This document shows positions 2,352 through 44,259 of a DNA stretch of 48,533 nucleotides, piece after piece (the stretch's first letter is position 1; each line of letters starts with the position of its first letter). Origin of the DNA: an uncultured beta proteobacterium (GTDB lineage Bacteria; Pseudomonadota; Gammaproteobacteria; Burkholderiales; Rhodocyclaceae); assembly GCA_903959855.1 (NCBI GenBank), contig CAJBYR010000025.1:1-48533 (forward strand), read 5' to 3'. The notes under the pieces are model-generated. The model was not told the origin of the DNA, ran no database searches, and worked only from the letters and a program-made list of their open reading frames with translations. The translations under genes were made by a program, and so were the position numbers.

Positions 2352-2566
2352 TACGACTCCGTTTTAAGGTTGTTGACGGGGTCTGTATGAACGCGCTGGT
2401 GGGCAGGAAAGCCAAGCCCAAAACCACTAGCAGGCAACTCGATGCCTTCATCTGCTGACGGCCTAATACGAAAGCGCGCGAGGCCATTTGCCAGCAGGGA
2501 CGCCACCTCCTGGAGGCGCTGTTCGGGCGTCATTTTGTCCGGCGGGGTATGTTTGATTTCATGCAT
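2351..2566 (-). CDS. Small hypothetical protein of the recombinase cassette
   Basis: A 71-residue ORF with AAAGGA nine bases before the ATG, so it is probably translated. The N-terminal half (residues 1-45, 'MTPEQRLQEVASLLANGLARFR') forms a plausible amphipathic helix and resembles small ORFs that accompany DUF2924/recombinase cassettes. The last 23 residues are encoded by the 30-bp regulatory element and the leader of the next gene, and the stop overlaps the DUF2924 start. The C-terminal tail is therefore probably not a conserved protein segment. Function unknown. Confidence 0.6.
   Translation of the reverse strand: MHEIKHTPPDKMTPEQRLQEVASLLANGLARFRIRPSADEGIELPASGFGLGFPAHQRVHTDPVNNLKTES
2387..2416 (-). 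promoter_or_regulatory. Recurrent 30-bp element, copy 1
   Basis: Read on the minus strand it is CTTGGCTTT, ten variable bases, AGCGCGTTCAT, ending 35 bases before the DUF2924 start codon. Four more copies with identical length and invariant ends exist in the window (18944, 19419, 20741, 44230). It lies inside the 3' end of the preceding small ORF. Function unproven: promoter, protein-binding site or RNA leader. Confidence 0.7.
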
Positions 2567-2697
2567 TGGTGACCAGTCCTTTCAGTGCAAATCGCGTATG
2601 CGAAATTGTCCTGAAAGGCAGGCATCAAGGCCATGAGGGAGTTTCGGGCTCCGACATGCTGTTGCGGGTTATTGCGAAAAGTGCAGCAGAATTTCCG

Positions 2698-3612
2698 CTA
2701 TTTTCTGACGGGGGGCTGGCCATTTCGAATGAAGTGATCGAAGGTGTCCTCCTCCGACTCTTCATCATCGTGGCGAGGACGCTGCCATTCCGCATCCGGC
2801 ATCAACAGCAAAGTCAGTGTGTAGTCGTACTGCGCAGCGACCTTGGTCATCTCGGTCAGCGGCATTGAGGATGCCTCGCGTGGAAACCATGCTTGAGCCC
2901 GTGTCGTTTGTGTCTCATTAGCCGCCGACCAGTTATCGCTGTAGGCCAGAGCCGCACGCGGCATTTCGATAGTTCGTTTGCGTGTTGCGAAATAGGCTCC
3001 CGACTTGAATGCTGCCTGGTTTGATTTCGCCCACAACATGTGATCATCACGACTGGCGACCAAGATCGCGCGCTTGTCGGCGATTTCAGTCCATCGCAAC
3101 GCAGCGGCAGTTAGCGACACGCCGTAGCGATCTGCGCAGTGGCCGAGCAAATCGAAACTGACGGGGTGGCCATTCACCTGCCTTCTGAAATCATCCAGCG
3201 GCATCAGCAGGGTCGATGAGAACAAATCTGCTTCGGCTTCGATGTCTCGCTCATTGTTGTCACCCGTCTCAATGTCGTCGTCGCCGCACTCGAAAAGATC
3301 CTGCTGGTGGCGGTGAAGGATGTAGTGACCAAACTCATGCGCGATCGTGAAGCGCTTGCGGCCTTCTGATGGGGTGGCGCTGTTGTAGAGGATCAGCCAC
3401 TTCGAGCGCGCCTTGTTAGCTTTCAGCAGGCCATCGAAACCGTCCAGATCTTCGCCTTGGACTTTGTCGATCGGCGATTCTGCGAAACACTGCCGGGAAT
3501 ATTCGACGGCCAATTCATCCACCTTGACAGGAAACCGCTCCGCCCCCAACACCATGCTGAGCATGGTGGAGATGCGGTTGGCCTCGGCCATGGGCTTCTT
3601 TCCTTTCGTCAT
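2698..3612 (-). CDS. ImmA/IrrE family metallo-endopeptidase
   Basis: The 304-residue protein has the zinc-peptidase motif HEFGH at residues 92-96 and the third-ligand motif ExxAD at about 125-129, typical of ImmA/IrrE proteins, which cleave or antagonise a partner XRE repressor. The longest start overlaps the XRE stop (ATGA). A second ATG at 3591 has AAAGGAAAG eight bases upstream and may be the real start. The C-terminal ~120 residues are longer than minimal ImmA. By analogy with known ImmR/ImmA pairs it would relieve repression upon a stress or induction signal; that link is inference. Confidence 0.88.
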   Translation of the reverse strand: MTKGKKPMAEANRISTMLSMVLGAERFPVKVDELAVEYSRQCFAESPIDKVQGEDLDGFDGLLKANKARSKWLILYNSATPSEGRKRFTIAHEFGHYILHRHQQDLFECGDDDIETGDNNERDIEAEADLFSSTLLMPLDDFRRQVNGHPVSFDLLGHCADRYGVSLTAAALRWTEIADKRAILVASRDDHMLWAKSNQAAFKSGAYFATRKRTIEMPRAALAYSDNWSAANETQTTRAQAWFPREASSMPLTEMTKVAAQYDYTLTLLLMPDAEWQRPRHDDEESEEDTFDHFIRNGQPPVRK

Positions 3613-3929
3613 TCATCTTCCCAGGCGTCGATGATCTTGCGGATCTTCTTCTTGTCCGGTTCCGACATCGTTTTGTACTTGCGGAAGAACGCTTCGTCAA
3701 TCACTTCCTCGTCAGGGCTGGAGGTGGAATCGCTAAGCAGGAACTCTGTCGTGACCTCAAGCACGGTGGCGATCTTGCCTATCTTCTCGGCTGATGGCTT
3801 CGGGTCGTCTTTGTTCTCCAGTTCCCATATGTAGCTCTTACTGGAGTCTGTGAGCTCGGCCAGTTGTTCAAGGCTGAGCTTCTTTTCTTTCCGCAATGTA
3901 CGGATCTTGTCACCCAAGGGTGAAGGCAC
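3609..3929 (-). CDS. XRE-family transcriptional repressor
   Basis: About 106 residues from a GTG at 3929. This start is chosen because GAGGAG sits nine bases upstream and the product then begins right at the HTH (PLGDKIRTLRKEKKLSLEQLAEL). The upstream extension to 4079 reads through the promoter/operator region and is rejected. The HTH spans residues 5-65. The C-terminal tail is acidic then basic ('MSEPDKKKIRKII') and might be the interface with the peptidase. It is coupled to the ImmA/IrrE gene. It is the only XRE repressor seen, so it is either the prophage CI equivalent or the regulator of a private module. Confidence 0.88.
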   Translation of the reverse strand: MPSPLGDKIRTLRKEKKLSLEQLAELTDSSKSYIWELENKDDPKPSAEKIGKIATVLEVTTEFLLSDSTSSPDEEVIDEAFFRKYKTMSEPDKKKIRKIIDAWEDE

Positions 3930-3963
3930 CGTTTTCTCCTCAATTGTTAGCTGGAACAGGAAA

Positions 3964-3969
3964 ATAATA
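3964..3969 (-). promoter_or_regulatory. Candidate -10 box of the XRE/ImmA promoter
   Basis: On the minus strand this reads TATTAT, 35 bases upstream of the XRE GTG start. No good -35 box is seen, but a CGTTCGG half-site lies 8 bases upstream of it, which would suit autoregulation. Weak evidence on its own. Confidence 0.35.
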
Positions 3970-3977
3970 CCATCAGA

Positions 3978-3984
3978 CCGAACG
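3978..3984. promoter_or_regulatory. Operator half-site CCGAACG
   Basis: A single copy of the seven-base arm of the palindrome at 4035-4052. It lies between the two divergent promoters, upstream of the candidate -10 box for the repressor gene. Predicted to be bound by the XRE protein. Confidence 0.45.
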
Positions 3985-3997
3985 AAAGCGTACCTGC

Positions 3998-4027
3998 TTG
4001 ACAAACCCATATTCAATCGGAAATAAT
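3998..4027 (+). promoter_or_regulatory. Rightward sigma-70-like promoter
   Basis: TTGACA at 3998-4003 matches the -35 consensus fully. AATAAT at 4022-4027 matches five of six -10 bases with an 18-base spacer. It points toward the gene starting at 4137, leaving a leader of about 100 bases that contains the CGTTCGG palindrome. Confidence 0.65.
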
Positions 4028-4034
4028 GCGCTAT

Positions 4035-4052
4035 CGTTCGGTGTGCCGAACG
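4035..4052. promoter_or_regulatory. Perfect palindrome, probable XRE operator
   Basis: CGTTCGG, a TGTG spacer, then CCGAACG: perfect seven-base arms. It begins about eight bases after the -10 box of the rightward promoter, where bound repressor would block transcription start. A half-site recurs at 3978. A second small palindrome, CCTTTATAAAGG, lies at 4116-4127 just before the ribosome binding site. Confidence 0.6.
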
Positions 4053-4136
4053 TAATCGGTCTTTAAACCCCAACAACAAGGCGGGGCTGCTGGGCTGATC
4101 TCCACCCGATCCTCACCTTTATAAAGGGGTATGTCG

Positions 4137-5366
4137 ATGAATGATGCAGAAAACCTGTCCAAGCTGCTCGGCCATCTGCCGCCGGCAGTATTTCGTAAAT
4201 TTATGGTCGAAGAGTTTGAGTTGGCCATTCCAGATCTGGACAAGAAGGCGGCCAAGCGTGATCAGCGGGCAGAAATGGAATCGGCTCTTTCTGGGCTAGG
4301 CATCAACCATCGGCAACGCATTGAGGAAGTCGCCGAACGTATCGTGTTGCTGTCTGACGGGGCTGGGCAAGACGTTATCGAAGGCTTCCGTGATGACATC
4401 TTTGACCCCAAAGACCAGGAAGCCTTTGCCGCCATTCGCAATCAGTACGAACGCGCACTGTGGTTGCATCTCAACGCTCCGACCTTGTTTGACGAAGCAC
4501 TGAATGCCCGCCAAGCGGATGTTTTCCGTCAGAGCGCATCGTGTTACTCGGGATTCATTGCCCCCAAGGATCTTTCGGTTCTGGAGGATGAGTCTTCCCG
4601 GCAGGCATTTCACCATGCCGTCGCCGACGAATTGGGCTGCGAAATTGACTCAGTCGCGGTTCAGGTATTCAAGCGGCTACGTCCGGACACGCAAACAGGC
4701 GAGGAGATCGACCTCTATCAGATCAGCGTGCACCACAACCGGCCACCCGAAATTGTCGATTGTGTCCAGGCAAGCGAGCTTGTATCCCAAGAGGTCGTTC
4801 GGGCTGTTTCATCGCACATCACCTATGAGCCTGCCAATGGCCATCTCGAGGTTTTGTCAAAGGACACCGATGGCCGGGAAGCGCTGGCACGCATCGTCGC
4901 CGATTCTTTGCTGCAGTCACCCATCACCGGCGAAAAGATTCCGCTGAAGCAATACGACTACCAGAGCTTGGCTGGGCCGAGGAACTTCGACATCACGGGC
5001 GAACCTGTCGTCTCCGTCAAGGTGATCGAACTCGGCTACCTGGGTGACAACCACCGGTCACTCCTGGTGAAGATTTGGGCCAAGGATGCCGACGATATTC
5101 ATGCTGCCGCACGATCATTGATTTCGCCGGAGTTTGATTTCCGTGATCACCAGCTCAATTACGCGAAGATTTCGATTCGTACCAAGAAAGTCGGGGCAGA
5201 TCGTGCCAGGACGATTTCAGTGATTTTGCGAGAGGACAACAAGTGCAACATCAAGACCAAGCGGGAGAAGGATCGCGCACTCTGTGATCGCCTGCTCGCA
5301 AAATGGAATCTGGTGAAGGTCATCGGCAATGCCCCAGAAGAAACTCTCGACGCGCTCGCTGCTTGA
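4137..5366 (+). CDS. Unknown protein, first gene of repressor-controlled operon
   Basis: About 409 residues; I do not recognise the family. The ATG at 4137 is preferred over 4131 because AAAGGGG ends seven bases before it. The N-terminal 60 residues are helical and charged ('LPPAVFRKFMVEEFELAIPDLDKKAAKRDQRAE'), then a helical middle part to about 150, then a mixed alpha/beta C-terminal part with many beta-like stretches ('EPVVSVKVIELGYLG', 'YAKISIRTKKV'). No signal peptide or membrane helix is seen. It occupies the position of cro in a classical immunity region but is four to five times too long. The next gene overlaps it by 38 bases, so both are probably co-translated. Confidence 0.7.
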   Translation: MNDAENLSKLLGHLPPAVFRKFMVEEFELAIPDLDKKAAKRDQRAEMESALSGLGINHRQRIEEVAERIVLLSDGAGQDVIEGFRDDIFDPKDQEAFAAIRNQYERALWLHLNAPTLFDEALNARQADVFRQSASCYSGFIAPKDLSVLEDESSRQAFHHAVADELGCEIDSVAVQVFKRLRPDTQTGEEIDLYQISVHHNRPPEIVDCVQASELVSQEVVRAVSSHITYEPANGHLEVLSKDTDGREALARIVADSLLQSPITGEKIPLKQYDYQSLAGPRNFDITGEPVVSVKVIELGYLGDNHRSLLVKIWAKDADDIHAAARSLISPEFDFRDHQLNYAKISIRTKKVGADRARTISVILREDNKCNIKTKREKDRALCDRLLAKWNLVKVIGNAPEETLDALAA

Positions 5367-6336
5367 CCTGGTCGATCTGTTCGAGCAATCGAGCCAATCG
5401 ACCGTCGATGCCGATGGGCAACGGCTATACGGGGTACCCGGATGGGTTCTTTCGGGTAACTCGACGTTGTCCGACAAGCAACTTGAGGCTTGGACCGATT
5501 GCGTTGGCTATTCGGCATTCTTCCCTGCGCCATGCAGGGAAGACCGAGTGGCGGTTGAGATCAAGGAAGATGACGATCCTGATCGCTATAGCTATCGGTG
5601 CCCGGAAACCTTCCGGAAAAAGTACATCAGCTTGGCAACGGTTGCTGTTCGATCGGTTCGTATTCATCTATTTTTGAACTGCGTTGCTGATCTGCTCGAA
5701 ATTCCTCAAGCACTACGGCGCGGTATCGAAACTGCGGCCGTGGGTAATGCGCTGTGGAACATCGGCAAGATGCGTGTGGCTGGTCTGCAGGTTGACGTGT
5801 GGCTGGCTCGCAATCTTTCGACCTCAATGGAAGGCGTGTTCCAGCACCTGCAGAACAGTACATTGCCCGACCAAGGGGTGATCCTTTCCACCGGCGGCAA
5901 GCTGCCAGCGATTATTCATCCCCCGAGGCAATATCGAGTTATCCCAATCAAGGACGTGTTGGTCCCGCATGTGGCGCTTCCGCACATTGACACCGATCTC
6001 ATCCATCGAATATTGGTGGCCGCCCCCGGCGAGAAACTTGACGCATCGCTGCCAGTTCGGTTCGATCCCTATTCCAACACGCTGGTGATTGCCACGAAAT
6101 CCAGCAAACCATGGCCAATCAAAGGGGCGAAACAGATCGCTGCAGTCCGCTACCTCTTTGAGCAATTCGAGAATGGCCGGCGATGGGTGCCTGCCGGTGA
6201 AATTCTGGCGGCTGTGTATGGATCCAAGGAATCGGGACGCAGCCGCCGAATGCAAAACCTGTTCAGCGGAAATATGTTCTGGGAAGACTACATCGTGAAT
6301 AACGACGACGGTGAATACGGATTCAATCTTGAGTAG
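5329..6336 (+). CDS. Unknown protein with C-terminal winged-helix-like part
   Basis: A 335-residue protein overlapping its upstream partner by 38 bases; family not recognised. The last ~75 residues ('AVRYLFEQFENGRRWVPAGEILAAVYGS', a basic SGRSRR segment, then 'DGEYGFNLE') look like a winged helix-turn-helix ending in a beta wing. The N-terminal ~250 residues have a hydrophobic core pattern but no catalytic motif I can name. A rho-independent terminator follows 27 bases after the stop, so the two genes form a closed unit. DNA binding is inference from the C-terminus. Confidence 0.7.
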   Translation: MPQKKLSTRSLLDLVDLFEQSSQSTVDADGQRLYGVPGWVLSGNSTLSDKQLEAWTDCVGYSAFFPAPCREDRVAVEIKEDDDPDRYSYRCPETFRKKYISLATVAVRSVRIHLFLNCVADLLEIPQALRRGIETAAVGNALWNIGKMRVAGLQVDVWLARNLSTSMEGVFQHLQNSTLPDQGVILSTGGKLPAIIHPPRQYRVIPIKDVLVPHVALPHIDTDLIHRILVAAPGEKLDASLPVRFDPYSNTLVIATKSSKPWPIKGAKQIAAVRYLFEQFENGRRWVPAGEILAAVYGSKESGRSRRMQNLFSGNMFWEDYIVNNDDGEYGFNLE

Positions 6337-6363
6337 CCGTCGTCATCTCGCAGCACTCCGCAC

Positions 6364-6386
6364 AACCGCCTTTGGGCGGTTTTTTG
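6364..6386 (+). terminator. Rho-independent terminator
   Basis: AACCGCC (6364-6370), loop TTTG, GGCGGTT (6375-6381), then a run of T. It closes the two-gene operon and separates it from the early lytic operon. Confidence 0.85.
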
Positions 6387-6420
6387 CTTTCTAGACCCCC
6401 AATTTCCACGCTTTTGTTGC

Positions 6421-6464
6421 GCCCGTACACGAGCCCGTACATGGCGGCGGCGGACGCCCGTACA
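6421..6464. repeat. Three direct repeats of GCCCGTACA
   Basis: Copies at 6421-6429, 6433-6441 and 6456-6464, offset by 12 and 23 bases, so roughly on one face of the helix. They lie in the gap between the terminator and the AlpA-like gene. They could be operator or Xis-type binding sites for that protein. Function not established. Confidence 0.6.
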
Positions 6465-6518
6465 CCTCGAATCCGAAACTGATCTCACGTTTTCGCAATC
6501 ACCTGAAAGGAGATAAAC

Positions 6519-6731
6519 GTGAGTATCAAACACCTCAACCAACGCCATCTGGCCGACCGTTGGGACGTCAGCGAAGCCACACTGGAACGTTGGCGGACCG
6601 AAGGAATCGGACCCGTATTTTTGAAACTGCAAGGGCGCGTGCTGTATCGCGTCGAGGACGTCGAAGCCTTCGAGGTCGATAGCCTACGCAAGAGCACTTC
6701 CGAGCGCGTCATGGCCGGAGGTGCAGCATGA
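6519..6731 (+). CDS. AlpA/excisionase-like helix-turn-helix protein
   Basis: A 70-residue MerR-like HTH protein ('HLADRWDVSEATLERWRTEGIGPVF' followed by 'VLYRVEDVEAFE'), the pattern of AlpA, Xis and HTH_17 proteins. The start is GTG with AAAGGAG seven bases upstream. It is the first gene of the rightward early operon and overlaps the next gene by four bases. It probably binds the nearby GCCCGTACA repeats. Such proteins either activate early genes or assist excision. An excisionase role would be odd with a serine recombinase. Confidence 0.8.
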   Translation: MSIKHLNQRHLADRWDVSEATLERWRTEGIGPVFLKLQGRVLYRVEDVEAFEVDSLRKSTSERVMAGGAA

Positions 6732-7198
6732 ACCTCGTCACGCCCGACAAAATCCTCGCGACGCCAGTTAGCGAGCTCGCTGATCAGTCCAGCGATTCCC
6801 TGTTCCGGCTCAAGAATGATGCGGCTGATTTTATGGCCGCCGCCAAGGCCATCGTCGAGCACGTCGATCGAGCCCTGGACCTGAAGTACGTCGACCGCGC
6901 TCGCCAGCTGCGACTGGCTGCAAACAAGGATACCGGCGTCGTGCATTTCGATGACGGCAATGTTCGTGTCACCGCTGATCTTCCCAAGAAAGTCGAGTGG
7001 GACCAGAAGCAACTTCACGAACTCATCCTTCGCATCGCCTCCGGTGGCGACAACCCTGCCGAGTTCATCGAGACGTCCTACCGCGTCAGCGAAACCAAGT
7101 ACCAGGCCTGGCAGGAATCCCTGCGTTCCCAATTCACCCCCGCACGCACCGTCAAGGTTGGCAAAGCCACCTACCGGCTCGCGCTGCTCTCGGAGTAA
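6728..7198 (+). CDS. Hypothetical early phage protein
   Basis: A 156-residue protein coupled to the AlpA-like gene. It has a helical N-terminal half and a central 'LPKKVEWDQKQLHELI' segment, ending with 'SEFTPARTVKVGKATYRL'-like sequence of the kind I associate with phage early-region proteins that accompany Sak4-type recombination genes. No catalytic motif is visible. It is probably cytoplasmic and may act with the following recombination genes; function unknown. Confidence 0.7.
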   Translation: MNLVTPDKILATPVSELADQSSDSLFRLKNDAADFMAAAKAIVEHVDRALDLKYVDRARQLRLAANKDTGVVHFDDGNVRVTADLPKKVEWDQKQLHELILRIASGGDNPAEFIETSYRVSETKYQAWQESLRSQFTPARTVKVGKATYRLALLSE

Positions 7199-7203
7199 TC
7201 ATC

Positions 7204-7488
7204 ATGCTGAAAACCTTGATTGAAGCACTGCGCAAGAAGTCCATGTCTCTGTCGGACTTGCCAGAAACCATTCGTGTTCCCGGCCACGGTGGACGTCCCA
7301 CCATCGATGGTCTGCGACTCGAAGAGGCCAGCGTCGATGACCTCGCATTTGCTATTCGCGGAATCTCTGATCAGACGAGTCTGCTGCTTTCTCAGGAATC
7401 CGCACTTCGTCGTCTTCATGACCTGGCCCGCAACCGTGGCGCGATCGGCACCGACAAGGTCGGCGAGATTTTCGGTGGGGAGGTCTGA
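7204..7488 (+). CDS. Hypothetical early phage protein
   Basis: 94 residues starting at ATG 7204, with CGGAG upstream. The sequence is helical with a glycine/proline turn ('VPGHGGRPTIDGL') and ends 'DKVGEIFGGEV', one base before the next ATG. A longer reading in another frame crossing this gene is a shadow. Its position directly before the Sak4-like ATPase suggests a recombination or replication accessory. No family recognised. Confidence 0.65.
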   Translation: MLKTLIEALRKKSMSLSDLPETIRVPGHGGRPTIDGLRLEEASVDDLAFAIRGISDQTSLLLSQESALRRLHDLARNRGAIGTDKVGEIFGGEV

Positions 7489-7489
7489 G

Positions 7490-8293: not shown

Positions 8294-8310
8294 CGCACAG
8301 GAGAAATTCC

Positions 8311-8943: not shown

Positions 8944-8955
8944 GGAGGCACGGCC

Positions 8956-14103: not shown

Positions 14104-14110
14104 ACAGAGT

Positions 14111-14209: not shown

Positions 14210-14236
14210 CGATCCGACATGGCATTGGAGATGAAC

Positions 14237-14701: not shown

Positions 14702-14702
14702 C

Positions 14703-14903
14703 ATGAAGGTATCGATACCTACGTATCGCTGCCCTCTCGGGCGCAGCACACAGCGCGTCGACCCGGACAGCATCAAACGCGAAGGCTGGCGCGAGCAACA
14801 CATTCTGGTTGTGGGTGCGAATGACGACCGTCTGGATTTCGTGGAACGTGAATTCGTTCGGCAGTTGGGCGAACGACTGTATGGGGATAAGCGCCGTGGT
14901 TGA
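14703..14903 (+). CDS. Small hypothetical phage protein
   Basis: 66 residues from ATG 14703, one base after the resolvase stop. It is basic and helical ('GWREQHILVVGANDDRLDFVEREFVRQLGERLYG'). The longer upstream reading overlaps the resolvase out of frame and is rejected. It overlaps the start of the next gene by a few bases. No family recognised. Confidence 0.6.
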   Translation: MKVSIPTYRCPLGRSTQRVDPDSIKREGWREQHILVVGANDDRLDFVEREFVRQLGERLYGDKRRG

Positions 14904-15312
14904 ATGGACAACAGAAGAGGTGGCTGCCCGGTTTGCCGAGGCAGCCGAGACGGGGCGACGTCTGCCCCGCGTCAAAGTGCAGGGCTACTTCAATGTCTGG
15001 CCTGCCTTCGCTCGGGAGGTATGGGAGTCGTCTCCTGATGACGAGTACGTCTATCGACCCTTGCCGCCCACCCCGCAGGCCATCGAGCGGATGATGGAGA
15101 CGATGCGCTGGGTGCTCTGGTTGGAGGAGGAGCAACGGCATCTCGTCTGGATGCGCGCCAAGGACATCGACTGGAAAGTCATCGCGCGGCGGATGGCCTG
15201 TCACCGCACGACGGCGTGGCGGGCATGGCAGAAAGCTTTGGCTACAGTCGCAGCGAACCTGAACGGAGTTGTTGACATCAATGTGGCTGATTGCCTGAGT
15301 GAAGTTACTTGA
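14896..15312 (+). CDS. DUF6362-like protein, possible late regulator
   Basis: About 138 residues from GTG 14896, preferred because GGGGAT lies seven bases upstream; ATG 14881 is the alternative. The N-terminus 'EWTTEEVAARFAEAAETGRRLP' and C-terminal HTH-like 'DWKVIARRMACHRTTAWRAWQKAL' match DUF6362 phage proteins as I remember them. The HTH looks like a sigma-region-4 or RinA-type module. It is the last gene of the early operon, in front of a structured leader and the packaging genes, the place where late transcription activators (Q, RinA) sit. Confidence 0.7.
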   Translation: MVEWTTEEVAARFAEAAETGRRLPRVKVQGYFNVWPAFAREVWESSPDDEYVYRPLPPTPQAIERMMETMRWVLWLEEEQRHLVWMRAKDIDWKVIARRMACHRTTAWRAWQKALATVAANLNGVVDINVADCLSEVT

Positions 15313-15641: not shown

Positions 15642-15653
15642 ACCCAATCTACG

Positions 15654-15677: not shown

Positions 15678-15685
15678 GCATTCAT

Positions 15686-18529: not shown

Positions 18530-18907
18530 TTACGCTGCTTCAGCTTCGATGGATTCGTCGGTCACTTCGCAGGGGATCACGAAGCCAGTCAAGTAAGGCA
18601 GCCCCTTGGGGATGCCGTAGTCCTTGCTGGTCTGGCGGCCAATCGTCCAGCCCGTCCACCGCGTCACTGCGGCGTCGATGGCCTGCTGGATCGTGTGGCC
18701 CCGGAGCATCTCGTTGAGGACGTCATCCGCAAAGTGGCGTCCGTGGCGGCTGTCGAGGAACAGCCTGACCGATTCGAGGGGCTGGTAGGTGGCATCCGAA
18801 ATTGCGGTCATCGCGATCGGCCAGGCGGCTGCGGCGGTGTCGTTCATCGTGCCAAAAAAGCCCCAGGCTTCGTTCTGGGTGGCGGGGATGGTTTGCTGGG
18901 TGGTCAT
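18530..18907 (-). CDS. Accessory phage protein of unknown function
   Basis: 125 residues starting at ATG 18907 with GAAGGAG upstream and element copy 2 ending 36 bases before the start. Its central part reads 'VRLFLDSRHGRHFADDVLNEMLRGHTIQQAIDAAVTRW', followed by 'GIPKGLPYLTGFVI'. I recognise the style from mobile-element accessory genes but cannot name a function. It is followed ten bases later by the 68-residue gene, so the two are probably co-expressed. Confidence 0.7.
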   Translation of the reverse strand: MTTQQTIPATQNEAWGFFGTMNDTAAAAWPIAMTAISDATYQPLESVRLFLDSRHGRHFADDVLNEMLRGHTIQQAIDAAVTRWTGWTIGRQTSKDYGIPKGLPYLTGFVIPCEVTDESIEAEAA

Positions 18908-18943: not shown

Positions 18944-18973
18944 ATGAACGCGCTGTCTGATTGTGAAGCCAAG
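18944..18973 (-). promoter_or_regulatory. Recurrent 30-bp element, copy 2
   Basis: Read on the minus strand: CTTGGCTTC, ten variable bases, AGCGCGTTCAT. It begins right after the TAG stop of the upstream 62-residue gene and ends 36 bases before the 18907 start codon. The in-frame stop directly in front of it shows this copy is not translated as an N-terminal extension of that gene. Confidence 0.75.
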
Positions 18974-19187: not shown

Positions 19188-19382
19188 TTACTTGCGACCC
19201 GTCACGGCGGCGAGCTTGTTACGGGCAGACTCGGATTGCCACCGGCAAGGTCCTTTGCCGCACTTGGCTTCGGCGTCCCATCGGGCGAGGATCTCTGCAT
19301 CCGTCCAGCCCTTGGCGGTCAGGTAGGCATGGTCGTCAGCATCGTAATTCGTGTGCTGCTGGAGGGCGGTGTTGGTGTGCAT
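19188..19382 (-). CDS. Small accessory phage protein
   Basis: 64 residues from ATG 19382, with GAAGGAG upstream and element copy 3 ending 36 bases before the start. The longer reading to 19469 runs through the element and is rejected. The sequence contains 'DDHAYLTAKGWTDAEILARWDAEAKCGKGPC', which looks like a compact helical domain with two cysteines near the C-terminus. Function unknown. It is the first gene of the minus-strand accessory operon and is divergent from the HU gene. Confidence 0.6.
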   Translation of the reverse strand: MHTNTALQQHTNYDADDHAYLTAKGWTDAEILARWDAEAKCGKGPCRWQSESARNKLAAVTGRK

Positions 19383-19418: not shown

Positions 19419-19448
19419 ATGAACGCGCTTTTCAATCACGAAGCCAAG
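19419..19448 (-). promoter_or_regulatory. Recurrent 30-bp element, copy 3
   Basis: On the minus strand: CTTGGCTTC, then a variable core, then AGCGCGTTCAT, with AA rather than CA before GCGCG. It lies in the divergent gap between the 64-residue gene and the HU gene, 36 bases before the 19382 start. Confidence 0.75.
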
Positions 19449-19516: not shown

Positions 19517-19810
19517 ATGAATAAATCGGAACTGATTGAAGCACTGGCCACCAAGACTGAGGTCTCCAAGGCCGCTGCCGGCAAGTCCATCGATGCACTG
19601 CTCGAAATCATTACCGCGTCCGTTGCCAAGGGCAATGATGTCGCGCTGATTGGTTTCGGTACCTTCAAGGCATCCAAGCGTGCCGCACGTACTGGCAAGA
19701 ACCCCAAGACCGGCGAAGCGCTGAAAATTGCTGCGACAACGGTTCCAACCTTCAAGGCTGGCGCTGGCTTCAAGGCCGCTGTCGCCCCGAAGAAGAAAGC
19801 CAAGAAGTAA
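19517..19810 (+). CDS. HU-family DNA-binding protein
   Basis: 97 residues with the full HU/IHF pattern: 'MNKSELIEALATKTEVSKAA' helices, 'DVALIGFGTFKASKR' beta core, and the DNA-gripping arm 'RTGKNPKTGEALKI'. An extra lysine-rich C-terminal tail (PKKKAKK) is present. AGGGAG precedes the ATG. It is monocistronic and the only plus-strand gene of the accessory block. It may organise phage DNA, aid recombination or packaging, or stand in for host HU. Confidence 0.92.
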   Translation: MNKSELIEALATKTEVSKAAAGKSIDALLEIITASVAKGNDVALIGFGTFKASKRAARTGKNPKTGEALKIAATTVPTFKAGAGFKAAVAPKKKAKK

Positions 19811-19875: not shown

Positions 19876-20430
19876 TCAAGCGATCCGGTAAGTACGCTCA
19901 CCGCCCTCGGCCTTGTCCGAGGTGAGGTTGAGCCCGAGTTTCTTTTTGAATGCCCCGGCAAAGGTGCCGCGTACCGTGTGCGCCTGCCATCCGGTGGCCG
20001 CGCATATCTGGCTGATGGTGGCCCCCTCGGGGCGCTGCAGCATCTGGATCACGGTGGCCTGCTTGCTGTTCTCGCGGGTACGGGGTTTGCCCTCGACGCC
20101 GACCTTGAGCAGACCTTTTGCCGCGTCCTGCTTTTCTTGCGCCCAGTTGGCCTCAGCCGCCGACACGGCGGCCTCAACCTCCGGGTCGGGGTGAATGGCC
20201 GCCGGCGTCGGTCGTACGCGCCCCAGGGCGTCGTAGCCCTCGGCCGCGACAAACCAGTCCTTGCCACCGTTGCTGGTGATCAGGGCTTTGTTGAATAAGC
20301 CGGAGATGACTTTTTGCCGGGCCCCGCCCTTGACCCCTTCCGGGAACCAGGTGAGGCGGCCATCCGGTTGGTCGGCCGCGTGGGTCAGAACGTGGTGTTG
20401 GGTGTCGGTGAGTTTGATTGTGGTGGTCAT
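19876..20430 (-). CDS. DUF3489 domain protein
   Basis: 184 residues from ATG 20430, with GGAGC seven bases upstream. The C-terminal ~70 residues ('SKQATVIQMLQRPEGATISQICAATGWQAHTVRGTFAGAFKKKLGL') are a clear DUF3489 winged-HTH-like domain. The N-terminal part ('LTDTQHHVLTHAADQPDGRLTWFP') also matches known members. These proteins are frequent in proteobacterial prophages and mobile elements, and a regulatory DNA-binding role is likely. The longer ORF to 20595 overlaps the next gene and is rejected. Confidence 0.85.
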   Translation of the reverse strand: MTTTIKLTDTQHHVLTHAADQPDGRLTWFPEGVKGGARQKVISGLFNKALITSNGGKDWFVAAEGYDALGRVRPTPAAIHPDPEVEAAVSAAEANWAQEKQDAAKGLLKVGVEGKPRTRENSKQATVIQMLQRPEGATISQICAATGWQAHTVRGTFAGAFKKKLGLNLTSDKAEGGERTYRIA

Positions 20431-20458
20431 GTTGAGCTCCGTGTAAGTGGGGTGTGGT

Positions 20459-20707
20459 TCAGTCTTCGAGGACGATGCGCCCGTCCAGCGTGATCCAGAG
20501 GCGGGCATCTTCGGGGGTGGCCATCTCCCGCGTCTCGCGGCCAGTGGACATCCAGACGCCGTCCTTGCCCGTAAAGGTGTAGGTCTTGCCGTCATGGACG
20601 ACCTCGACCGGTTTGCCCTGGTGAAACTCGACTTGGATGTCCATCCAGCCGCGCAGGTTATGGTTGGTGTCGATGACTTTGGCCTCGATGCTTTGTTTGC
20701 TGTTCAT
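20459..20707 (-). CDS. Small accessory phage protein
   Basis: 82 residues from ATG 20707, preceded by GAGGAAG. It is rich in beta-like stretches ('GWMDIQVEFHQGKPVEVVHDGKTYTFTGKDGVWMS', 'RLWITLDGRIVLED'). Element copy 4 ends 33 bases before the start. The longer reading to 20821 runs through that element into the terminase promoter region and is rejected. Function unknown. Confidence 0.6.
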   Translation of the reverse strand: MNSKQSIEAKVIDTNHNLRGWMDIQVEFHQGKPVEVVHDGKTYTFTGKDGVWMSTGRETREMATPEDARLWITLDGRIVLED

Positions 20708-20740: not shown

Positions 20741-20770
20741 ATGAACGCGCTGTTCTGGAGGGAAGCCAAG
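20741..20770 (-). promoter_or_regulatory. Recurrent 30-bp element, copy 4
   Basis: On the minus strand: CTTGGCTTC, a variable core, then AGCGCGTTCAT. It lies in the divergent gap between the 82-residue accessory gene and the terminase small subunit gene, 33 bases before the 20707 start codon. Confidence 0.75.
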
Positions 20771-31155: not shown

Positions 31156-31160
31156 GCGCC

Positions 31161-37785: not shown

Positions 37786-37812
37786 CTGCCCAGGCAGCCG
37801 AGGACACTCGCC

Positions 37813-38193
37813 ATGATTACTTTGGACGGCATTGCCTTGCCGGCAGGACTCCTATGGTCCGATGAATTCGCCATCGCCCGCGTGGCCCAGACCGTGCGCC
37901 GCACCCTAGATGGTTCGGTGGTGGTGTTTTACGGCGAATTGCGCGCTGGTTTGCCGATCACCCTGGAGTCCGAACCGGATGCCGGCTGGCTGACCAGAAC
38001 GCAGATCGAGGCGCTGGCCTTGCGGGCAGCGAGCCCCGGCGGCGTCTACCCGCTTGTCCTGCGCGGCCAGACCTGGACGGTGATGTTCCGCCACCAGGAC
38101 GCGCCGGCCTTCGAGGCAAAGCCGCTGGTGTCGGTGGCCAATCCCCAATCCGGCGACTTCTACATCGCCACTTTGAAACTCATGACTGTCTAG
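37813..38193 (+). CDS. Tail-tip-region hypothetical protein
   Basis: 126 residues with 'ITLDGIALPAGLLWSDEFAIARVAQTVRRTLDGSVVVFYGELRAGLPITLE' and 'YPLVLRGQTWTVMFRHQDAPAFEAKPLV'. The alternating strands resemble a distal-tail-type beta fold. GAGGA precedes the ATG. It is probably a tail hub or distal tail component. No family name assigned. Confidence 0.65.
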   Translation: MITLDGIALPAGLLWSDEFAIARVAQTVRRTLDGSVVVFYGELRAGLPITLESEPDAGWLTRTQIEALALRAASPGGVYPLVLRGQTWTVMFRHQDAPAFEAKPLVSVANPQSGDFYIATLKLMTV

Positions 38194-38203
38194 GAGTTAA
38201 ACC

Positions 38204-39214: not shown

Positions 39215-40068
39215 TGGCACGCCTCGGTCTCAAGAAAACCTATCCCAACGGGACCTTCGACAAAGCCGCCGTCGCGTCCCTGTACAGCAATCTGCGCAAC
39301 ATGGTCGTCGATGCCGGGTTCGTAGTGGCGTTCGAGATCCCGACCGCCGTCGACTTCCTGCGTATGGGCTCGCCTGCGGGAACGGCCGATGATGACGTGC
39401 CGCATTGGGCCTTCGAGTATGTCGATCAGGGCAGTTACGGCGAGATTCGCGCCTACCCGGTCTTTGGCAATCACTATCTCGACGCAGACGCCTACAAGCA
39501 CGCCTACACCATCGTCAATTCCGGCTGGGTCTATGAAGAAATCACGCTCTGGTTTGCCTGTGATGGCGCGGCCGGCTGGTGGTGGCTGCACGCAACCCAG
39601 GTGGATACCAACAGCGCGACCGGCGTGTCGATGCGCTTTGCCGTGGCGGGGACTACCTCGCGCCGCTACGCCTCCGATATGCACCAGGGCATTTGCTCCC
39701 GGTATGGCATCTGGGATGCCTGGGGTGACTGGGAGCCGGCCTATTCGATCACCGAGGAGGGGCTGCTCGAACTGCAACCCTGGACCGGCACCTGGTCGCC
39801 GTTTGGCGAGGGTTGGACCTTCAATGGCAAGCGCCAACCCGGTTCGCCCTTACCCAAGATGGCGGTGCCGCAGTTTCCCAATCGGGATGGCGACATCGGT
39901 GCCTGCATCCTCGGGGAGTTCAACGAGATCCTTGTGCTGACCGATGGCTACGCGCAGGAAGAAACGGTCGTTCCCGGCTGGGTGGCGATGACCGGTGATG
40001 AATGGGATCAACCCTATGCGGTGCCGACCCCTGCGCAGTTCGTCGATCCGGATGCACAACCGCTATGA
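39214..40068 (+). CDS. Tail-tip-region hypothetical protein
   Basis: 284 residues, Trp- and Tyr-rich ('WVYEEITLWFACDGAAGWWWLHATQ', 'SRYGIWDAWGDWEPAYSIT'). The aromatic richness recalls the 814-residue tail protein and suggests a related surface or carbohydrate-binding role, but this is only an impression. It is coupled to both neighbours by overlaps. Confidence 0.6.
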   Translation: MARLGLKKTYPNGTFDKAAVASLYSNLRNMVVDAGFVVAFEIPTAVDFLRMGSPAGTADDDVPHWAFEYVDQGSYGEIRAYPVFGNHYLDADAYKHAYTIVNSGWVYEEITLWFACDGAAGWWWLHATQVDTNSATGVSMRFAVAGTTSRRYASDMHQGICSRYGIWDAWGDWEPAYSITEEGLLELQPWTGTWSPFGEGWTFNGKRQPGSPLPKMAVPQFPNRDGDIGACILGEFNEILVLTDGYAQEETVVPGWVAMTGDEWDQPYAVPTPAQFVDPDAQPL

Positions 40069-41600
40069 CCCTGGGCATCTCGCTCGCTCTGACGTTTTGC
40101 GCTGGCCTGTATGCCGACTCGGGACCGACGATACTCAAGCAGCGGTTCAGCGCGAACTGGGGCAAGACCGAGATCTTCGTCCGCAATGCCTCACCCTGGG
40201 ATCTGACCCGGGAACGTGCCTGGCAGCACGCTGAAAGTTGGTCGATCCGCTTTGCCTCGAATCACGTTGCACCCTATGGACTGCGTCTGGAGGGTGGCCA
40301 GCGTGTGCTGTACGGTGACATGCGGGTCAATCGCCAGCAGTTGGCACTGGGCTATGGCGATGCCCACCTTGCCCGGGCGCGGCATCAGATCGTCTATACC
40401 GATCTGGGACGCTGCCAGAAGTCCTTCCGGATGCCTTACTGGCTCACGCAGCGCGTGTATGTGGCGCATCAGTTGGCCTATGACGTGACCAATGTCGATC
40501 CGGTGACGAAGCGGCTGATGGCCTCCTGGTCGCTGCTCGACGGGGCGCGTCTGCAGGCGGTGATGAACAGCCCGGAACTGATCTGGAACGGACAACGGAT
40601 CCGCATCGTCCAGGCCACGCTCTCATGCGACGAGGACAGCCCGGTCTGGATCGCACAAATCGAAGTGGCGGCTGTGGCTGATTTTGCGCTGATCGCGATC
40701 GGTGACGACATCACACTGACCCTCGGGCTGGAAACCTTTGCCTTCGTCATCGATGGCAAGACCCTGTCGCGTGAAAGCATCGACGCTCAGCGCTGCAACC
40801 TGACCGCCGTGTCGCCGCTGGCCTTGCTCGATGCCCCGTTCGCTGGCACCACCCGCTATTACGAGTCCGACGCCATCTCCGCCGAAGCCGCTGTCGAAAA
40901 CCTGATCGGCCCCGTCGATTGGCAACTGCCGAGTTGGACCATTCCCGCCGGGCGCCTCCTTCTGGAAAACGTCACGCCACTGGCCGCAGCCCGGAACATC
41001 GTCGCGGCCATCGGCGGCATCATCGAAAGCAATCCGGAGGGTTCGGTGGTGTGCCGACGCCGACACCCAATCAGCATCCCACAGTACGGTGCCACCCAGC
41101 CTGCCGGCAGCCTGTTCGACGCCGATGTGCTCTCGGTGAGTTCACAGATTGCGCCGATGCGCGGCTACAACCGGGTCACGATCGCCAACGAAGAAGGGGC
41201 AACGGGTTCCGCGTCTGACCGGATCGAGTTTGTGGTGGATCCAGACGACCCGTATCGCGGCACGGTGCGCGCGTATTTGTCGGTTTCCCGTCCAGTGGCG
41301 CTGGTGCATACCGGCCACGCCAGCACGGTGGTCGCCAGCCTCGGCGCGGTGACGCGCACGGAAACCGAGACCGTGGAATTCATCGAGGGGCAGTCCAGTA
41401 CGCGCTATCCGGTCGCAGCCATCACCAGCAGCATCTGGCAACACAGCGCGCTTGGGGCATTCGTTGCCGATGGGCAGGGTTTGGTGGCTGCCGCGCCCGG
41501 CTGCAGCCTGTTGCGCATCGCCTATACGACGACATCGCTCGACTGGCGCGTCGCACTTCCGGTCGATGAGGAAGTGCAATTCGTCCTGGTCGACGCCTGA
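40065..41600 (+). CDS. Tail hub/baseplate-like protein
   Basis: 511 residues from ATG 40065, overlapping the upstream stop by four bases; the reading from 40002 is an out-of-place extension. The segment 'VTPLAAARNIVAAIGGIIESNPEGSVVCRRRHPIS' resembles the part of tail hub proteins where a beta domain is followed by 'A..IA..IGG..E..P.G.L..R'. With 'ITLTLGLETFAFVIDGKTLS' before it, I infer a gp27/hub-like protein. The assignment is tentative. Confidence 0.6.
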   Translation: MTLGISLALTFCAGLYADSGPTILKQRFSANWGKTEIFVRNASPWDLTRERAWQHAESWSIRFASNHVAPYGLRLEGGQRVLYGDMRVNRQQLALGYGDAHLARARHQIVYTDLGRCQKSFRMPYWLTQRVYVAHQLAYDVTNVDPVTKRLMASWSLLDGARLQAVMNSPELIWNGQRIRIVQATLSCDEDSPVWIAQIEVAAVADFALIAIGDDITLTLGLETFAFVIDGKTLSRESIDAQRCNLTAVSPLALLDAPFAGTTRYYESDAISAEAAVENLIGPVDWQLPSWTIPAGRLLLENVTPLAAARNIVAAIGGIIESNPEGSVVCRRRHPISIPQYGATQPAGSLFDADVLSVSSQIAPMRGYNRVTIANEEGATGSASDRIEFVVDPDDPYRGTVRAYLSVSRPVALVHTGHASTVVASLGAVTRTETETVEFIEGQSSTRYPVAAITSSIWQHSALGAFVADGQGLVAAAPGCSLLRIAYTTTSLDWRVALPVDEEVQFVLVDA

Positions 41601-41621
41601 TCACATTGAAGAGGATTTTCC

Positions 41622-42128
41622 ATGGCCAATGCCACCATTCGTGTCCAGTTTGGCAACCCGGACGGGTCCGAGGCTGCCGGTCACCTGTCGGCCGAGATCG
41701 ATACCCGGCCCGGTGGTCTGAACGGCGGACGCACCTCGTTCAACCCAGGCGAAACGGCTTACATCCTGGTCTACAAGTCCGACAACGTCAGCATTACCGA
41801 CACCATCTGTTCGGCCGGATCACTATCCAGCCAAGGTACGGCGGTGGTGAGTGTGACCGAGGAGATCATGTTCGAGGATGCCGACACGGCCAATCTGGGT
41901 AAGCCGGCGCGTACCGGCATTTCGCAGACCGTCTGGTACGGCCGCAGCCTTGGTGGACTCTCGCTCCAGTCGGACAAGGTCACCGTCAAAGCGGCAGCCA
42001 AGGGGGTGGGTGTGGCCAAGGTCACCTACGATGCGCTGGCATCGGTCTATGCCTTGTCGTCGCCCTCGACGCTCAATGGCGAGACAGACTTCTCGATCCT
42101 GGCGCTGATCAAGGGGACCGCATCTTGA
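41622..42128 (+). CDS. Tail-tip-region structural protein
   Basis: 168 residues, beta-rich with regular strands ('ATIRVQFGNPDGSEAAG', 'ETAYILVYKSDNVSITDTICSAGSL', 'AAKGVGVAKVTYDALASVYALSSP'). It looks like a single jelly-roll or Ig-like module. AAGAGGA precedes the ATG. Structural by context only. Confidence 0.6.
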   Translation: MANATIRVQFGNPDGSEAAGHLSAEIDTRPGGLNGGRTSFNPGETAYILVYKSDNVSITDTICSAGSLSSQGTAVVSVTEEIMFEDADTANLGKPARTGISQTVWYGRSLGGLSLQSDKVTVKAAAKGVGVAKVTYDALASVYALSSPSTLNGETDFSILALIKGTAS

Positions 42129-42138
42129 GGAACTACCC

Positions 42139-42435
42139 ATGATCATCGAGGTGTATCGCCAGGATGGTGCGCGGGAGGGTTCGCCCATCGTCGAGCCACT
42201 GTTGGCAGACGAGGCGTTGATCCATCGCGGGACGGCAGAAATGGATGCCAACGCGAATGCCTTCAACCAGATCGACATGGCAGTGGTGTTCCGGCCCGGC
42301 TTCCGGCTGGGCCAGATCATTGAGGCCACGGATCCATCGACTGCCAGCCCCTACCGGGCCAAGGTGACCGGCATTCAGATCACGGTCTCCGAGGCGTCCA
42401 TCGACGCCAACCTGACGCTGGAGCAACCGCGATGA
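42139..42435 (+). CDS. Small tail-tip-region protein
   Basis: 98 residues. 'EALIHRGTAEMDANANAFNQIDMAVVFRPGFRLGQIIEATD' followed by 'YRAKVTGIQITVSEASIDANLTLEQPR' resembles the strand pattern at the end of hub or D-like baseplate proteins. It could be a split part of a hub complex with the 511-residue protein. It overlaps the next gene by four bases. Confidence 0.55.
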   Translation: MIIEVYRQDGAREGSPIVEPLLADEALIHRGTAEMDANANAFNQIDMAVVFRPGFRLGQIIEATDPSTASPYRAKVTGIQITVSEASIDANLTLEQPR

Positions 42436-42650
42436 CGTTTCCACTGAAGGCACTGACGCGACTGCTGGCCCCGGAGTCATCCGAGGTCGGCTCGGTCGTT
42501 GGTATTGAAGGCAGTGTGATTCGGGTCGCGACCGCTCGAGGCGCGGTCATGGCGCGCACCGTCGATACGCTGGCGGTAGGAGACCGTGTGCAGGTTCGCA
42601 ATGGCATGGCCACCAAGTCACCGGTGGCGCGGCAGATTTATCCCGTTTGA
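42432..42650 (+). CDS. Small OB-like phage protein
   Basis: 72 residues: 'VGSVVGIEGSVIRVATARGAVMARTVDTLAVGDRVQVRNGMAT', which reads as a five-stranded OB-like barrel similar to the N-domains of baseplate spike (V-like) proteins. No helical spike follows. Tail-tip role inferred from neighbours. Confidence 0.55.
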   Translation: MTFPLKALTRLLAPESSEVGSVVGIEGSVIRVATARGAVMARTVDTLAVGDRVQVRNGMATKSPVARQIYPV

Positions 42651-42660
42651 GGAGGTTGGA

Positions 42661-42909
42661 ATGGCAACACAAGAAACGTTTCTGGAACGCATGCAGCCGG
42701 TGCTCGATGCGATGCCCGAAGGCCCCGATAAAGAAAAGCTGCTCGCCCTGATCGAGTCGCAGGACACCGTCGAACGACCGGACGTGCCACCCAAGGATCG
42801 CGCCCGGGCACTACGCCGGCTGACACAGATCGACAGCACGACCAATACCAATGACCGAACACCAAGTCACGGTCGAGGTCGGGTGAGCACTCAAGGTCGG
42901 CCGGCATAA
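42661..42909 (+). CDS. Small hypothetical phage protein
   Basis: 82 residues from ATG 42661 with an excellent GAGGAGG site. It is acidic and helical ('FLERMQPVLDAMPEGPDKEKLLALIESQD'), then a basic tail. A short hairpin follows, so it is probably the last gene of the tail operon. No family recognised. Confidence 0.6.
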   Translation: MATQETFLERMQPVLDAMPEGPDKEKLLALIESQDTVERPDVPPKDRARALRRLTQIDSTTNTNDRTPSHGRGRVSTQGRPA

Positions 42910-42934
42910 CGACAAGTTCAGGTTCACACCCGCG

Positions 42935-42955
42935 AGCCCACCCACGAGGTGGGCT
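42935..42955 (+). terminator. Hairpin, weak terminator candidate
   Basis: AGCCCACC, loop CACGA, GGTGGGCT: a perfect 8-bp stem between tail and lysis genes. Only a short ATTT follows after five bases, so termination would be weak. It may be an attenuator. Confidence 0.4.
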
Positions 42956-42978
42956 TCGCATTTCTGGAGGATGAAAAC

Positions 42979-43272
42979 ATGGATGCAAACCAAGTGGAGC
43001 GGCGAAAGATGGTGACGCTGCCGCAAGAAGAGTTCGAGGCGATTCTCGAGCGTGCCGCAGAACGCGGCGCACGGCATGCACTGCATGAGGTTGGGCTCGA
43101 TGGCGAGGATGCGGCGCACGACATTCGCGAGTTGCGCAATCTGCTCGATGCCTTCAACGAGGCCAAGAAAACCGCTGGCCTGACCATCATCAAGATGATG
43201 GTGACCGGGTTCGTGATGGTGTTGCTTGCCGGGACGATCCTGAAACTCAAAGTATTCGGGGGGACGCCATGA
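42979..43272 (+). CDS. DUF6127-like single-membrane-helix protein
   Basis: 97 residues from ATG 42979, with GGAGG upstream. An acidic helical N-terminal part ('LPQEEFEAILERAAERGARHALHEVGLDGEDAAHDIRELRNLLDAF') is followed by one membrane helix at about residues 68-90. The layout fits DUF6127 proteins, which accompany holins. It probably assists lysis or regulates holin timing; this is inferred. Confidence 0.7.
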   Translation: MDANQVERRKMVTLPQEEFEAILERAAERGARHALHEVGLDGEDAAHDIRELRNLLDAFNEAKKTAGLTIIKMMVTGFVMVLLAGTILKLKVFGGTP

Positions 43273-43745
43273 TCGAGACTCTACTGGGTGGTCTGCTGGG
43301 TGGTGCGTTTCGCCTGGCTCCCGAAATCCTGAAATGGATGGACCGCAATGGCGAGCGCAGCCACGAACTGGCGATGCAGGACAAGGCGCTGGAGTTCGAA
43401 AAACTGCGTGGCGCGCAGCGTATGGGCGAAATTGGTGCTGCTGCCGATGCGGCGTGGAATACCGGAGCCATCGATGCCTTACGCGAGGCGGTAGCGGCGC
43501 AGGGGCAGCGTTCCGGCGTGCGCTGGGCCGATGCCTTGTCGATCAGCGTACGGCCAGTGATCACGTATTGGTTCATGCTGCTTTACTGTGCGGCCAAGAC
43601 GGCGGCGTTTGTTGCGGCAGTAACGGCTGGCGCTGGTTGGGGTACGGCGATCCTGCATGCCTGGACGGAAGCGGATCAGGCGCTGTGGGCCGGCGTTCTG
43701 AATTTCTGGTTCCTCGGGCGTGTATTTGACCGGGTGCGATCGTGA
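43269..43745 (+). CDS. Holin-like membrane protein
   Basis: 158 residues: amphipathic N-terminal helix ('TLLGGLLGGAFRLAPEILKWM'), a charged middle, then hydrophobic segments around residues 95-120 ('PVITYWFMLLYCAAKTAAFVAAVTAG') and 138-155. The pattern matches the three-helix holin family found in phages and gene-transfer agents. It overlaps the endolysin start (TGATG). It would release the endolysin, which has no signal sequence of its own. Confidence 0.75.
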   Translation: MIETLLGGLLGGAFRLAPEILKWMDRNGERSHELAMQDKALEFEKLRGAQRMGEIGAAADAAWNTGAIDALREAVAAQGQRSGVRWADALSISVRPVITYWFMLLYCAAKTAAFVAAVTAGAGWGTAILHAWTEADQALWAGVLNFWFLGRVFDRVRS

Positions 43746-44209
43746 TGGATGTGCCGCAGGCGGCCATCGAGCTTGCCAAACGCTTCGAGGGATTCGAACG
43801 CAAGGTGAAGCGCGGCATCGAAATTACGGCTGTCCCCTACATTTGTCCGGCAGGCTTCTGGACGATTGGCTACGGCCACCTGTGCGACCCAAAGCATCCG
43901 CCGATCACCGAAGCAGAAGCCGACATCTATCTGGCGCGTGATCTGCAAACGGCTCTGGCGGCGACGTTGCGCTACTGCCCGGTGCTGGCTACCGAGCCCG
44001 AGGGGCGGCTGGCAGCCATCGTAGATTTCACGTTCAACCTGGGGGCTGGGCGGTTGCAGACATCAACCCTGCGGCGGCGAATTAACCAGATGGATTGGGC
44101 CGCTGCCGGTAGGGAACTACGCAGATGGGTCTATGGCGGAGGAAAAGTGCTGCCCGGACTTGTCACGCGACGTGAGGCTGAGGCTGCGCTACTACTTCGT
44201 AACGCATGA
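43745..44209 (+). CDS. Endolysin, GH24 lysozyme
   Basis: 154 residues from ATG 43745. It is a T4-lysozyme-type glycosidase with catalytic Glu15 ('AKRFEGFE') and 'GFWTIGYGH'. At the position of the usual Asp the sequence reads 'PYICPAGFWT', giving a Glu15-Cys34-Thr40 set instead of Glu-Asp-Thr. There is no signal peptide or SAR helix, so export depends on the holin. Confidence 0.92.
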   Translation: MDVPQAAIELAKRFEGFERKVKRGIEITAVPYICPAGFWTIGYGHLCDPKHPPITEAEADIYLARDLQTALAATLRYCPVLATEPEGRLAAIVDFTFNLGAGRLQTSTLRRRINQMDWAAAGRELRRWVYGGGKVLPGLVTRREAEAALLLRNA

Positions 44210-44229
44210 TCCGGAAATGCCCGTAAGAG

Positions 44230-44259
44230 CTTGGCTTTCAAGCCGAACAGCGCGTTCAT
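44230..44259 (+). promoter_or_regulatory. Recurrent 30-bp element, copy 5
   Basis: CTTGGCTTT, a variable core, then AGCGCGTTCAT, here on the plus strand. It is intergenic between endolysin and the last prophage gene, ending 25 bases before ATG 44285. It flips strand together with the gene it precedes, which argues for an oriented expression signal. Confidence 0.75.

Follow-up and report, generated by a model that had tools for sequence, protein, structure and literature searches.

We analysed a 48,533-nucleotide stretch of DNA (hereafter, the window), the contig CAJBYR010000025.1 of an uncultured beta proteobacterium of the Rhodocyclaceae (assembly GCA_903959855.1). This single contig carries a prophage, as recognised from its Pfam families and its identity to the Acidithiobacillus phage AcaML1, and it contains five copies of an oriented 30-base element, CTTGGCTTY-N10-AGCGCGTTCAT. 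The element is widespread, being used by a large group of temperate phages rather than forming a local repeat, and it stands in front of many unrelated small genes. Judging from its sequence features, we consider it probable that the element is a promoter of temperate phages and related elements, which bacterial RNA polymerase would use with the help of a dedicated reader.

The copies lie at 2387–2416, 18944–18973, 19419–19448 and 20741–20770 on the minus strand and at 44230–44259 on the plus strand, all of them matching the pattern without mismatch. They end 35, 36, 36, 33 and 25 nt, respectively, before an ATG, in agreement with the positions, strands and 25–36 nt gap given in an initial annotation of this DNA. 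That annotation was also right that the fifth copy changes strand together with its gene (both are on the plus strand), and that the genes behind the copies are either small genes of no known family or the DUF2924 gene; a Pfam family was found for DUF2924 alone among the five. Its remark that one copy has AA for CA before GCGCG holds as far as an A for C in the 19419–19448 copy, where it precedes AGCGCG; AGCGCG itself is intact in all five. In 100 dinucleotide-preserving shuffles of the window, no match with up to 3 mismatches ever appeared. Elsewhere in the host genome we found three copies at 2 mismatches (contigs C85, C132 and C234), two of which are only 1 mismatch from the wider pattern with AGM, and five at 3 mismatches; a backward control pattern gave none.

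We scanned IMG/VR with the pattern CTTGGCTTY-N10-AGMGCGTTCAT and found the element in at least 120 stretches; the window and the IMG/VR stretches together hold 204 matches, 173 of them unique, among the matches listed. At least 117 stretches of reference genomes also have it, and their titles, among the matches listed, are mostly those of Beta- and Gammaproteobacteria and include Candidatus Nitrospira defluvii. The N. defluvii genome carries four copies within 1 mismatch and a prophage closely related to that of the window (large terminase 83% and RuvC-like protein 85% identical). In a screen of 369 genomes from the class of the host, with 1 mismatch allowed, the element occurs in 13, among them the genome of the window. 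Eight of these 13 hold 3–9 copies; the backward control pattern matches none of the 369. AcaML1 (JX507079) has four exact copies, one of them ahead of a DUF2924-recombinase operon. No entry of the AcaML1 feature table marks the element, and Gp33 is annotated across one copy. This Gp33 (L251, 21967–22479, terminase small subunit) overlaps both the element copy and a small open reading frame (ORF) on the opposite strand; it may be a spurious gene, since Gp23 instead matches the presumed terminase small subunit of the window.

Enrichment of the element before start codons in related elements, which had been set beforehand as a refuting test, is clear: in 186 of 199 copies (the five of the window, the rest being the IMG/VR matches listed) the next 60 nt contain an ATG with a Shine-Dalgarno sequence that opens an ORF of at least 30 amino acids, as against 212 of 3,980 random positions in the same loci (5.3%). 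The distance from the end of the element to the start codon is 25–57 nt. Loci L001–L013 are left out of the match count, the start-codon count and the first spacing count, and copies near a locus end are left out of the start-codon, spacing, clustering and anatomy counts. When up to 2 mismatches were allowed there were 416 copies (loci L001–L005, L009–L013 and L253–L261 being left out), and 411 of them yielded an ORF. These ORFs fell into 39 BLAST clusters, 25 with at least two members; frame artefacts and chance sites account for some of the small ones. The largest contain DUF2924 (98), the DUF6900 family (62), DUF3489 (62) and A3 (49), the last being the family of the small gene behind the 18944–18973 copy. 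The DUF2924-recombinase operon is thus the commonest target, and it is the sole link of the element to integration. No host housekeeping gene was recognised among the target clusters, 14 single-member clusters remaining unidentified. The initial proposal of an oriented cis-acting element common to small accessory genes and the integration operon is upheld; the further suggestion that these genes are expressed in lysogens is conjecture.

The anatomy of the element was derived from 220 non-redundant copies, reduced from 413 by the removal of sequences with more than 80% identity. A −35-like TTGGCT (positions 2–7) is separated by 17 bp from a −10-like GTTCAT (positions 25–30), and a start-site-like Y-R-Y follows (Y36 in 99%, R37 in 73% and Y38 in 94% of the copies). 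Upstream, the A/T fraction peaks at 0.82, 0.69 and 0.61 at positions −4, −15 and −24, which correspond to about −41, −52 and −61 counted from a start at position 37; A/T phasing at such positions resembles that of UP elements. Its period of 10 has a power of 0.106, the highest of 12 periods tested, with a maximum of 0.0087 in 500 row-shifted controls. The leader downstream is poor in U, T falling from 18% upstream to 11% within it. General features of promoters are present, namely two boxes 17 bp apart, in most copies a purine at the usual distance of 6–8 nt after the second, and phased A/T tracts upstream. Function as a promoter is well supported by this anatomy, which suggests that CTTGGCTTY would occupy the −35 place and the right end, GCGTTCAT, the −10 place, with the fixed 17-bp spacer between TTGGCT and GTTCAT, and that transcription would begin 7 bases past the motif at the Y-R-Y, giving a short U-poor leader with a Shine-Dalgarno sequence.

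Loci were also fetched by protein homology to DUF2924, DUF3489 and A3 instead of by the motif, 238 in all. The counts per family leave out two short DUF3489 loci and L045 and L410 (one each from the DUF3489 and A3 lists). The element was present within 3 mismatches in all 79 A3 homologues examined (80 were fetched), within 1 mismatch in 59 of 77 DUF3489 homologues, several of the remaining 18 visibly lying behind the end of another gene, and within 1 mismatch in 26 of 80 DUF2924 homologues. In these 238 loci the two halves occurred at a single spacing at 261 distinct sites and at none of 13 other spacings; a shorter core gave 282 sites at that spacing and one at another. A looser pattern fits 76 of the 79 A3 copies, in which the left half and AGMGCG hardly vary; these copies end with the five bases TTACT (39 copies), TTCAT (30) and TCAAT or TGAAT (7).

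Many DUF2924 operons that lack the element of the window's group (class I) keep the N10 geometry with other letters: CTCGACTTC-N10-AGAGCGGTCAT in G050, CTTCACTTC-N10-GGAGCGGTCAT in G055 and CTACACTTC-N10-AATGCCGTCAT in G056, the last with a near copy in the alphaproteobacterium Shinella. Because these variant operons keep the geometry, the promoter of the integration operon looks ancestral; the DUF2924-recombinase operon seems to be the original target, and the multiplication of the element ahead of accessory genes seems to be a feature of the class I group. On this basis the element would in the first place drive the DUF2924-serine recombinase-(ParB-HTH) operon for integration (HTH, helix-turn-helix). 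In the window's group it would have been copied before many small accessory genes, which would make those genes one co-regulated set. A different leader, GGGGCTCGGGGTGGTA..., unrelated to the element, precedes DUF3489 in G050, G054 and G056. Phage WO has a DUF2924 homologue, and no element was seen in the 150 nt upstream of it. We also considered that the host sets the class of the element and did not retain this idea; the class II pattern was found in none of 56 genomes of the class of G436, a sample that seemingly represents the window's own class and is uninformative on Alphaproteobacteria. The label 'Alphaproteobacteria' of L196 may be wrong.

The −10-like part had been called a poor match for sigma-70, and the 220 copies confirm this: the best match to TATAAT is 3 of 6 letters in every copy, with the T at −7 present and an A at −11 in none; shuffled letters would give about 23 copies with at least 4 of 6. 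A dedicated reader is likely to exist, because the −10 misfits sigma-70 and some 20 positions hardly ever vary; it would be a phage-borne specificity factor or an activator working with host RNA polymerase, and it probably recognises both halves. The foremost alternative, which we regard as unlikely, is that the host's sigma-70 uses the element as a normal promoter whose boxes are unusual and whose UP element is strong; it would then need no such reader and would owe its conservation to recent spread with phages. The spacing between −35 and −10 and the UP-like phasing agree with this, TTGGCT shares 4 of 6 letters with TTGACA (3–4 of 6 in the variant classes), and the element occurs in hosts of different phyla, Nitrospira included, to all of which the core RNA polymerase is common. 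However, the −10 box does not fit, the near-invariance of AGMGCG and of the spacer exceeds what sigma-70 needs, and the N10 and the leaders vary, which indicates that there has been time to drift.

Several observations weigh against a promoter with a dedicated reader. Promoters usually tolerate a one-base change of the spacer, and unlike them this element tolerates none. The conservation inside the 30 bp is inflated, because the motif itself served to collect the 220 copies; the protein-based sampling and the comparison of variant classes are free of this bias. The motif with the 45 nt after it is slightly more structured than mononucleotide shuffles (mean z −0.67, vs −0.16 for an upstream control; 120 of the 220 copies). 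In 25 of the 220 copies, e.g. in L105, an upstream stretch can pair with all nine first bases, G-U pairs being allowed, where 2.6 copies are expected; this stretch is perhaps the terminator of the preceding gene, and the promoter reading does not explain it. The candidate readers add to these points. The special sigma factor that had been suggested did not materialise as a shared phage protein: among 32 motif-bearing phage records, some of them fragments, sigma region 2 exceeded the family cut-off in only two, the related G019 and G041, with a third below it. The DUF6362 protein (14881–15312, plus strand; PF19889, E 1.4e-36), predicted to have a sigma-region-4-like fold, is not favoured either, being not found in AcaML1, G019 and G041 (the last two 49-kb records), where DUF6456 is present and exact copies of the element are kept. 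DUF3489, found in 19 of 19 class I phages and in 8 of the 13 element-bearing genomes vs none of 40 without the element, was rejected as the reader, because it was not found in G202, whose genome is a single contig and contains both the element and DUF2924. The phage-encoded sigma-70-like protein with the region 2 match lies at L257:8904–9602 in G041, and G019 has one as well.

DUF6362 looks more like a late-gene regulator. The predicted structure (pLDDT 76.7, pTM 0.65) gave Foldseek matches to sigma factors and to the antiterminator Q21, all with E above 0.2, and class I phages differ in its recognition helix, which also speaks against DUF6362 as the reader. Of 49 records, 38 contain DUF6362. 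Both models were run on 35 records, of which 16 had DUF6362, 9 had DUF6456, none had both and 10, several of these being fragments, had neither; since they never occur together there, both may be late-gene regulators. The ParB-HTH protein, which 16 of the 19 class I phages and seven of the eight others have, was set aside, its recognition region being too variable among 23 phages (16 of class I). DUF2924 was found in 18 of the 19 class I phages and in all eight others, which had been chosen by DUF2924 and one of which (G066, covered over only 20 kb) in fact has a class I element. DUF2924 and host RNA polymerase remain as the candidate readers. The predicted DUF2924 structure has a pLDDT of 79.5 and a pTM of 0.40, and the best PDB matches of its C-terminal half are RAMA-type MPND structures, including a DNA complex (E 0.067, prob 0.98, about 60 residues). 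As a speculative proposal, to which we give little weight, DUF2924 might be a non-sigma specificity factor that recruits or opens host RNA polymerase at the element, possibly gated by the phage methyltransferases, so that integration and accessory genes would form one regulon across phyla.

DUF2924 and the ParB-HTH protein also enter an alternative that we hold to be improbable, in which the element is an operator where such a phage DNA-binding protein represses or silences genes in lysogens, the real promoter lying elsewhere or overlapping. A bipartite site of fixed spacing would suit an operator, both proteins are encoded right after the element, and DUF2924 occurs in 11 of the 13 genomes with the element and in none of the 40 without it; the two exceptions look like decayed pieces of prophages. 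The comparison genomes were hand-picked from the 356 that lack the element, the majority being larger ones, and the co-occurrence arises partly by construction, because DUF2924 is a main target. The wide variation of the ParB-HTH recognition region argues against this alternative, and no other promoter was recognised in the regions of the window that were scanned: sigma-70 scans of three regions found no site, a weak result given that shuffles expect only 0.2–0.6.

Still less credence, and very little of it, goes to a leader element that would function as RNA, either as the target of a phage protein or through an effect on translation. The limited distance to the start codon and the slight lean of the motif plus 45 nt towards structure would accord with it, and in 104 of the 220 copies four base pairs are possible between positions 16–19 and 25–28 (GAAC/GUUC). 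However, full pairing is absent in the other 116 while the 3′ arm hardly varies, the consensus fold of the 220 copies contains no pair, and the A/T phasing lies upstream of the element. Compared with shuffles, the leader has slightly less structure (mean z +0.43; 120 of the 220 copies), and an Rfam scan up to E 5 gave no match at any of the five copies of the window. Thus no conserved structure emerged, and the structured leader considered in the initial annotation was not borne out, the opposite lean of the motif plus 45 nt notwithstanding. The least probable alternative, a recombination boundary for swapping gene cassettes between phages, draws on the cassette-like gene clusters and on a decayed copy in L568, where the DUF2924 gene is missing from immediately behind the leader, but it is at odds with the orientation of the element to a start codon with a Shine-Dalgarno sequence, with the UP-like phasing and with the DUF2924 promoter variants, which keep geometry rather than sequence.

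In T4-type and other phages, a single extended early promoter recurs many times ahead of small genes whose function is unknown, and it fits host sigma-70 well. The element resembles these early promoters in its many copies, each before such genes, and differs in its misfit to sigma-70 and in heading the integration operon of temperate phages as well. The three CII-dependent promoters of lambda, which include the integrase promoter, match sigma-70 poorly and need a phage activator, with TTGC repeats flanking the −35. The poor match and the inclusion of an integration-gene promoter are common to both systems, but the conserved bases of the element span −35 to −10; general Pfam scans reported no CII homologue, no search aimed at CII having been made. 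In cluster K mycobacteriophages, the start-associated sequence (SAS) is a 13-bp conserved sequence that includes the Shine-Dalgarno sequence and usually lies 3–9 bp before the start, and the extended start-associated sequence (ESAS), of which Adephagia has seven, is described as a 46–47-bp motif with putative promoter hexamers 17–18 bp apart and a 17-bp imperfect inverted repeat around these SigA-like hexamers (PMC3203893, PMC11373665). Like SAS and ESAS, the element is an oriented conserved repeat that temperate phages carry ahead of numerous small genes unrelated to one another. Unlike SAS, which sits on the ribosome site, it ends well upstream of the start, and unlike ESAS it lacks a sigma-70-like −10, keeps one fixed spacing, lacks a general inverted repeat (a full upstream arm is present in only the 25 copies mentioned above) and occurs in other hosts. 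Among the matches listed in searches of the open-licence PMC literature (with the string CTTGGCTT and three longer ones, the DUF names, AcaML1, SAS and RAMA), no description of the element was found, and within those searches it is undescribed so far.

In the window, the 2387–2416 copy is promoter-like and heads a presumed operon on the minus strand consisting of the DUF2924 gene (1869–2351; PF11149, E 1.1e-39), the C-terminal half of whose product is predicted to be RAMA-like, a large serine recombinase gene (520–1872; Pfam Resolvase and Recombinase) and, last, the gene for a small ParB-HTH protein (65–523; HTH_ParB, E 3.4e-4, 21.1 bits, below the cut-off of 22.6). This operon lies at the left and is followed by replication-type genes, two DNA methyltransferase genes, which in our reading start ParB-like, and a minus-strand cluster of small genes with three copies of the element. 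Behind these three copies lie the A3 ORF (18530–18907), which has no Pfam family, and two ORFs without Pfam or PADLOC family (19188–19382 and 20459–20707), the latter being the first gene behind the 20741–20770 copy; the DUF3489 gene (19876–20433; PF11994, E 1.8e-33) is probably co-transcribed from that copy. An HU-like gene (19517–19810, plus) lies on the opposite strand inside this cluster, and contig C234 of this genome holds a stretch 97% identical to it. Next come the genes for terminase, portal, protease, capsid and lysozyme, and the fifth copy and its small ORF (44285–44578, plus) lie beyond the lysozyme gene. Homologues of this ORF elsewhere also have the element (a BLAST cluster of 10, represented by L041), and it is 60% identical to a G013 protein. 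To the right of the lysozyme end of the prophage, 45547–48516 (minus) holds BREX defence genes that the end of the contig truncates, for BrxL and for a C-terminal portion of PglZ; in AcaML1, genes for McrB, McrC and Dcm follow the lysozyme gene. The segment 33433–33503 (minus) gave a weak Rfam match to the Burkholderiales-2 RNA (31.4 bits vs a gathering score of 67.9).

Being easy to recognise, the element offers one common point of access to how a large group of environmental temperate phages is regulated, and to the many small accessory genes of unknown function that share it. It predicts gene starts and marks decayed prophages, and it makes two questions testable: when the accessory genes are switched on, and which protein reads a promoter that is not sigma-70-like in hosts as different as Burkholderiales and Nitrospira.

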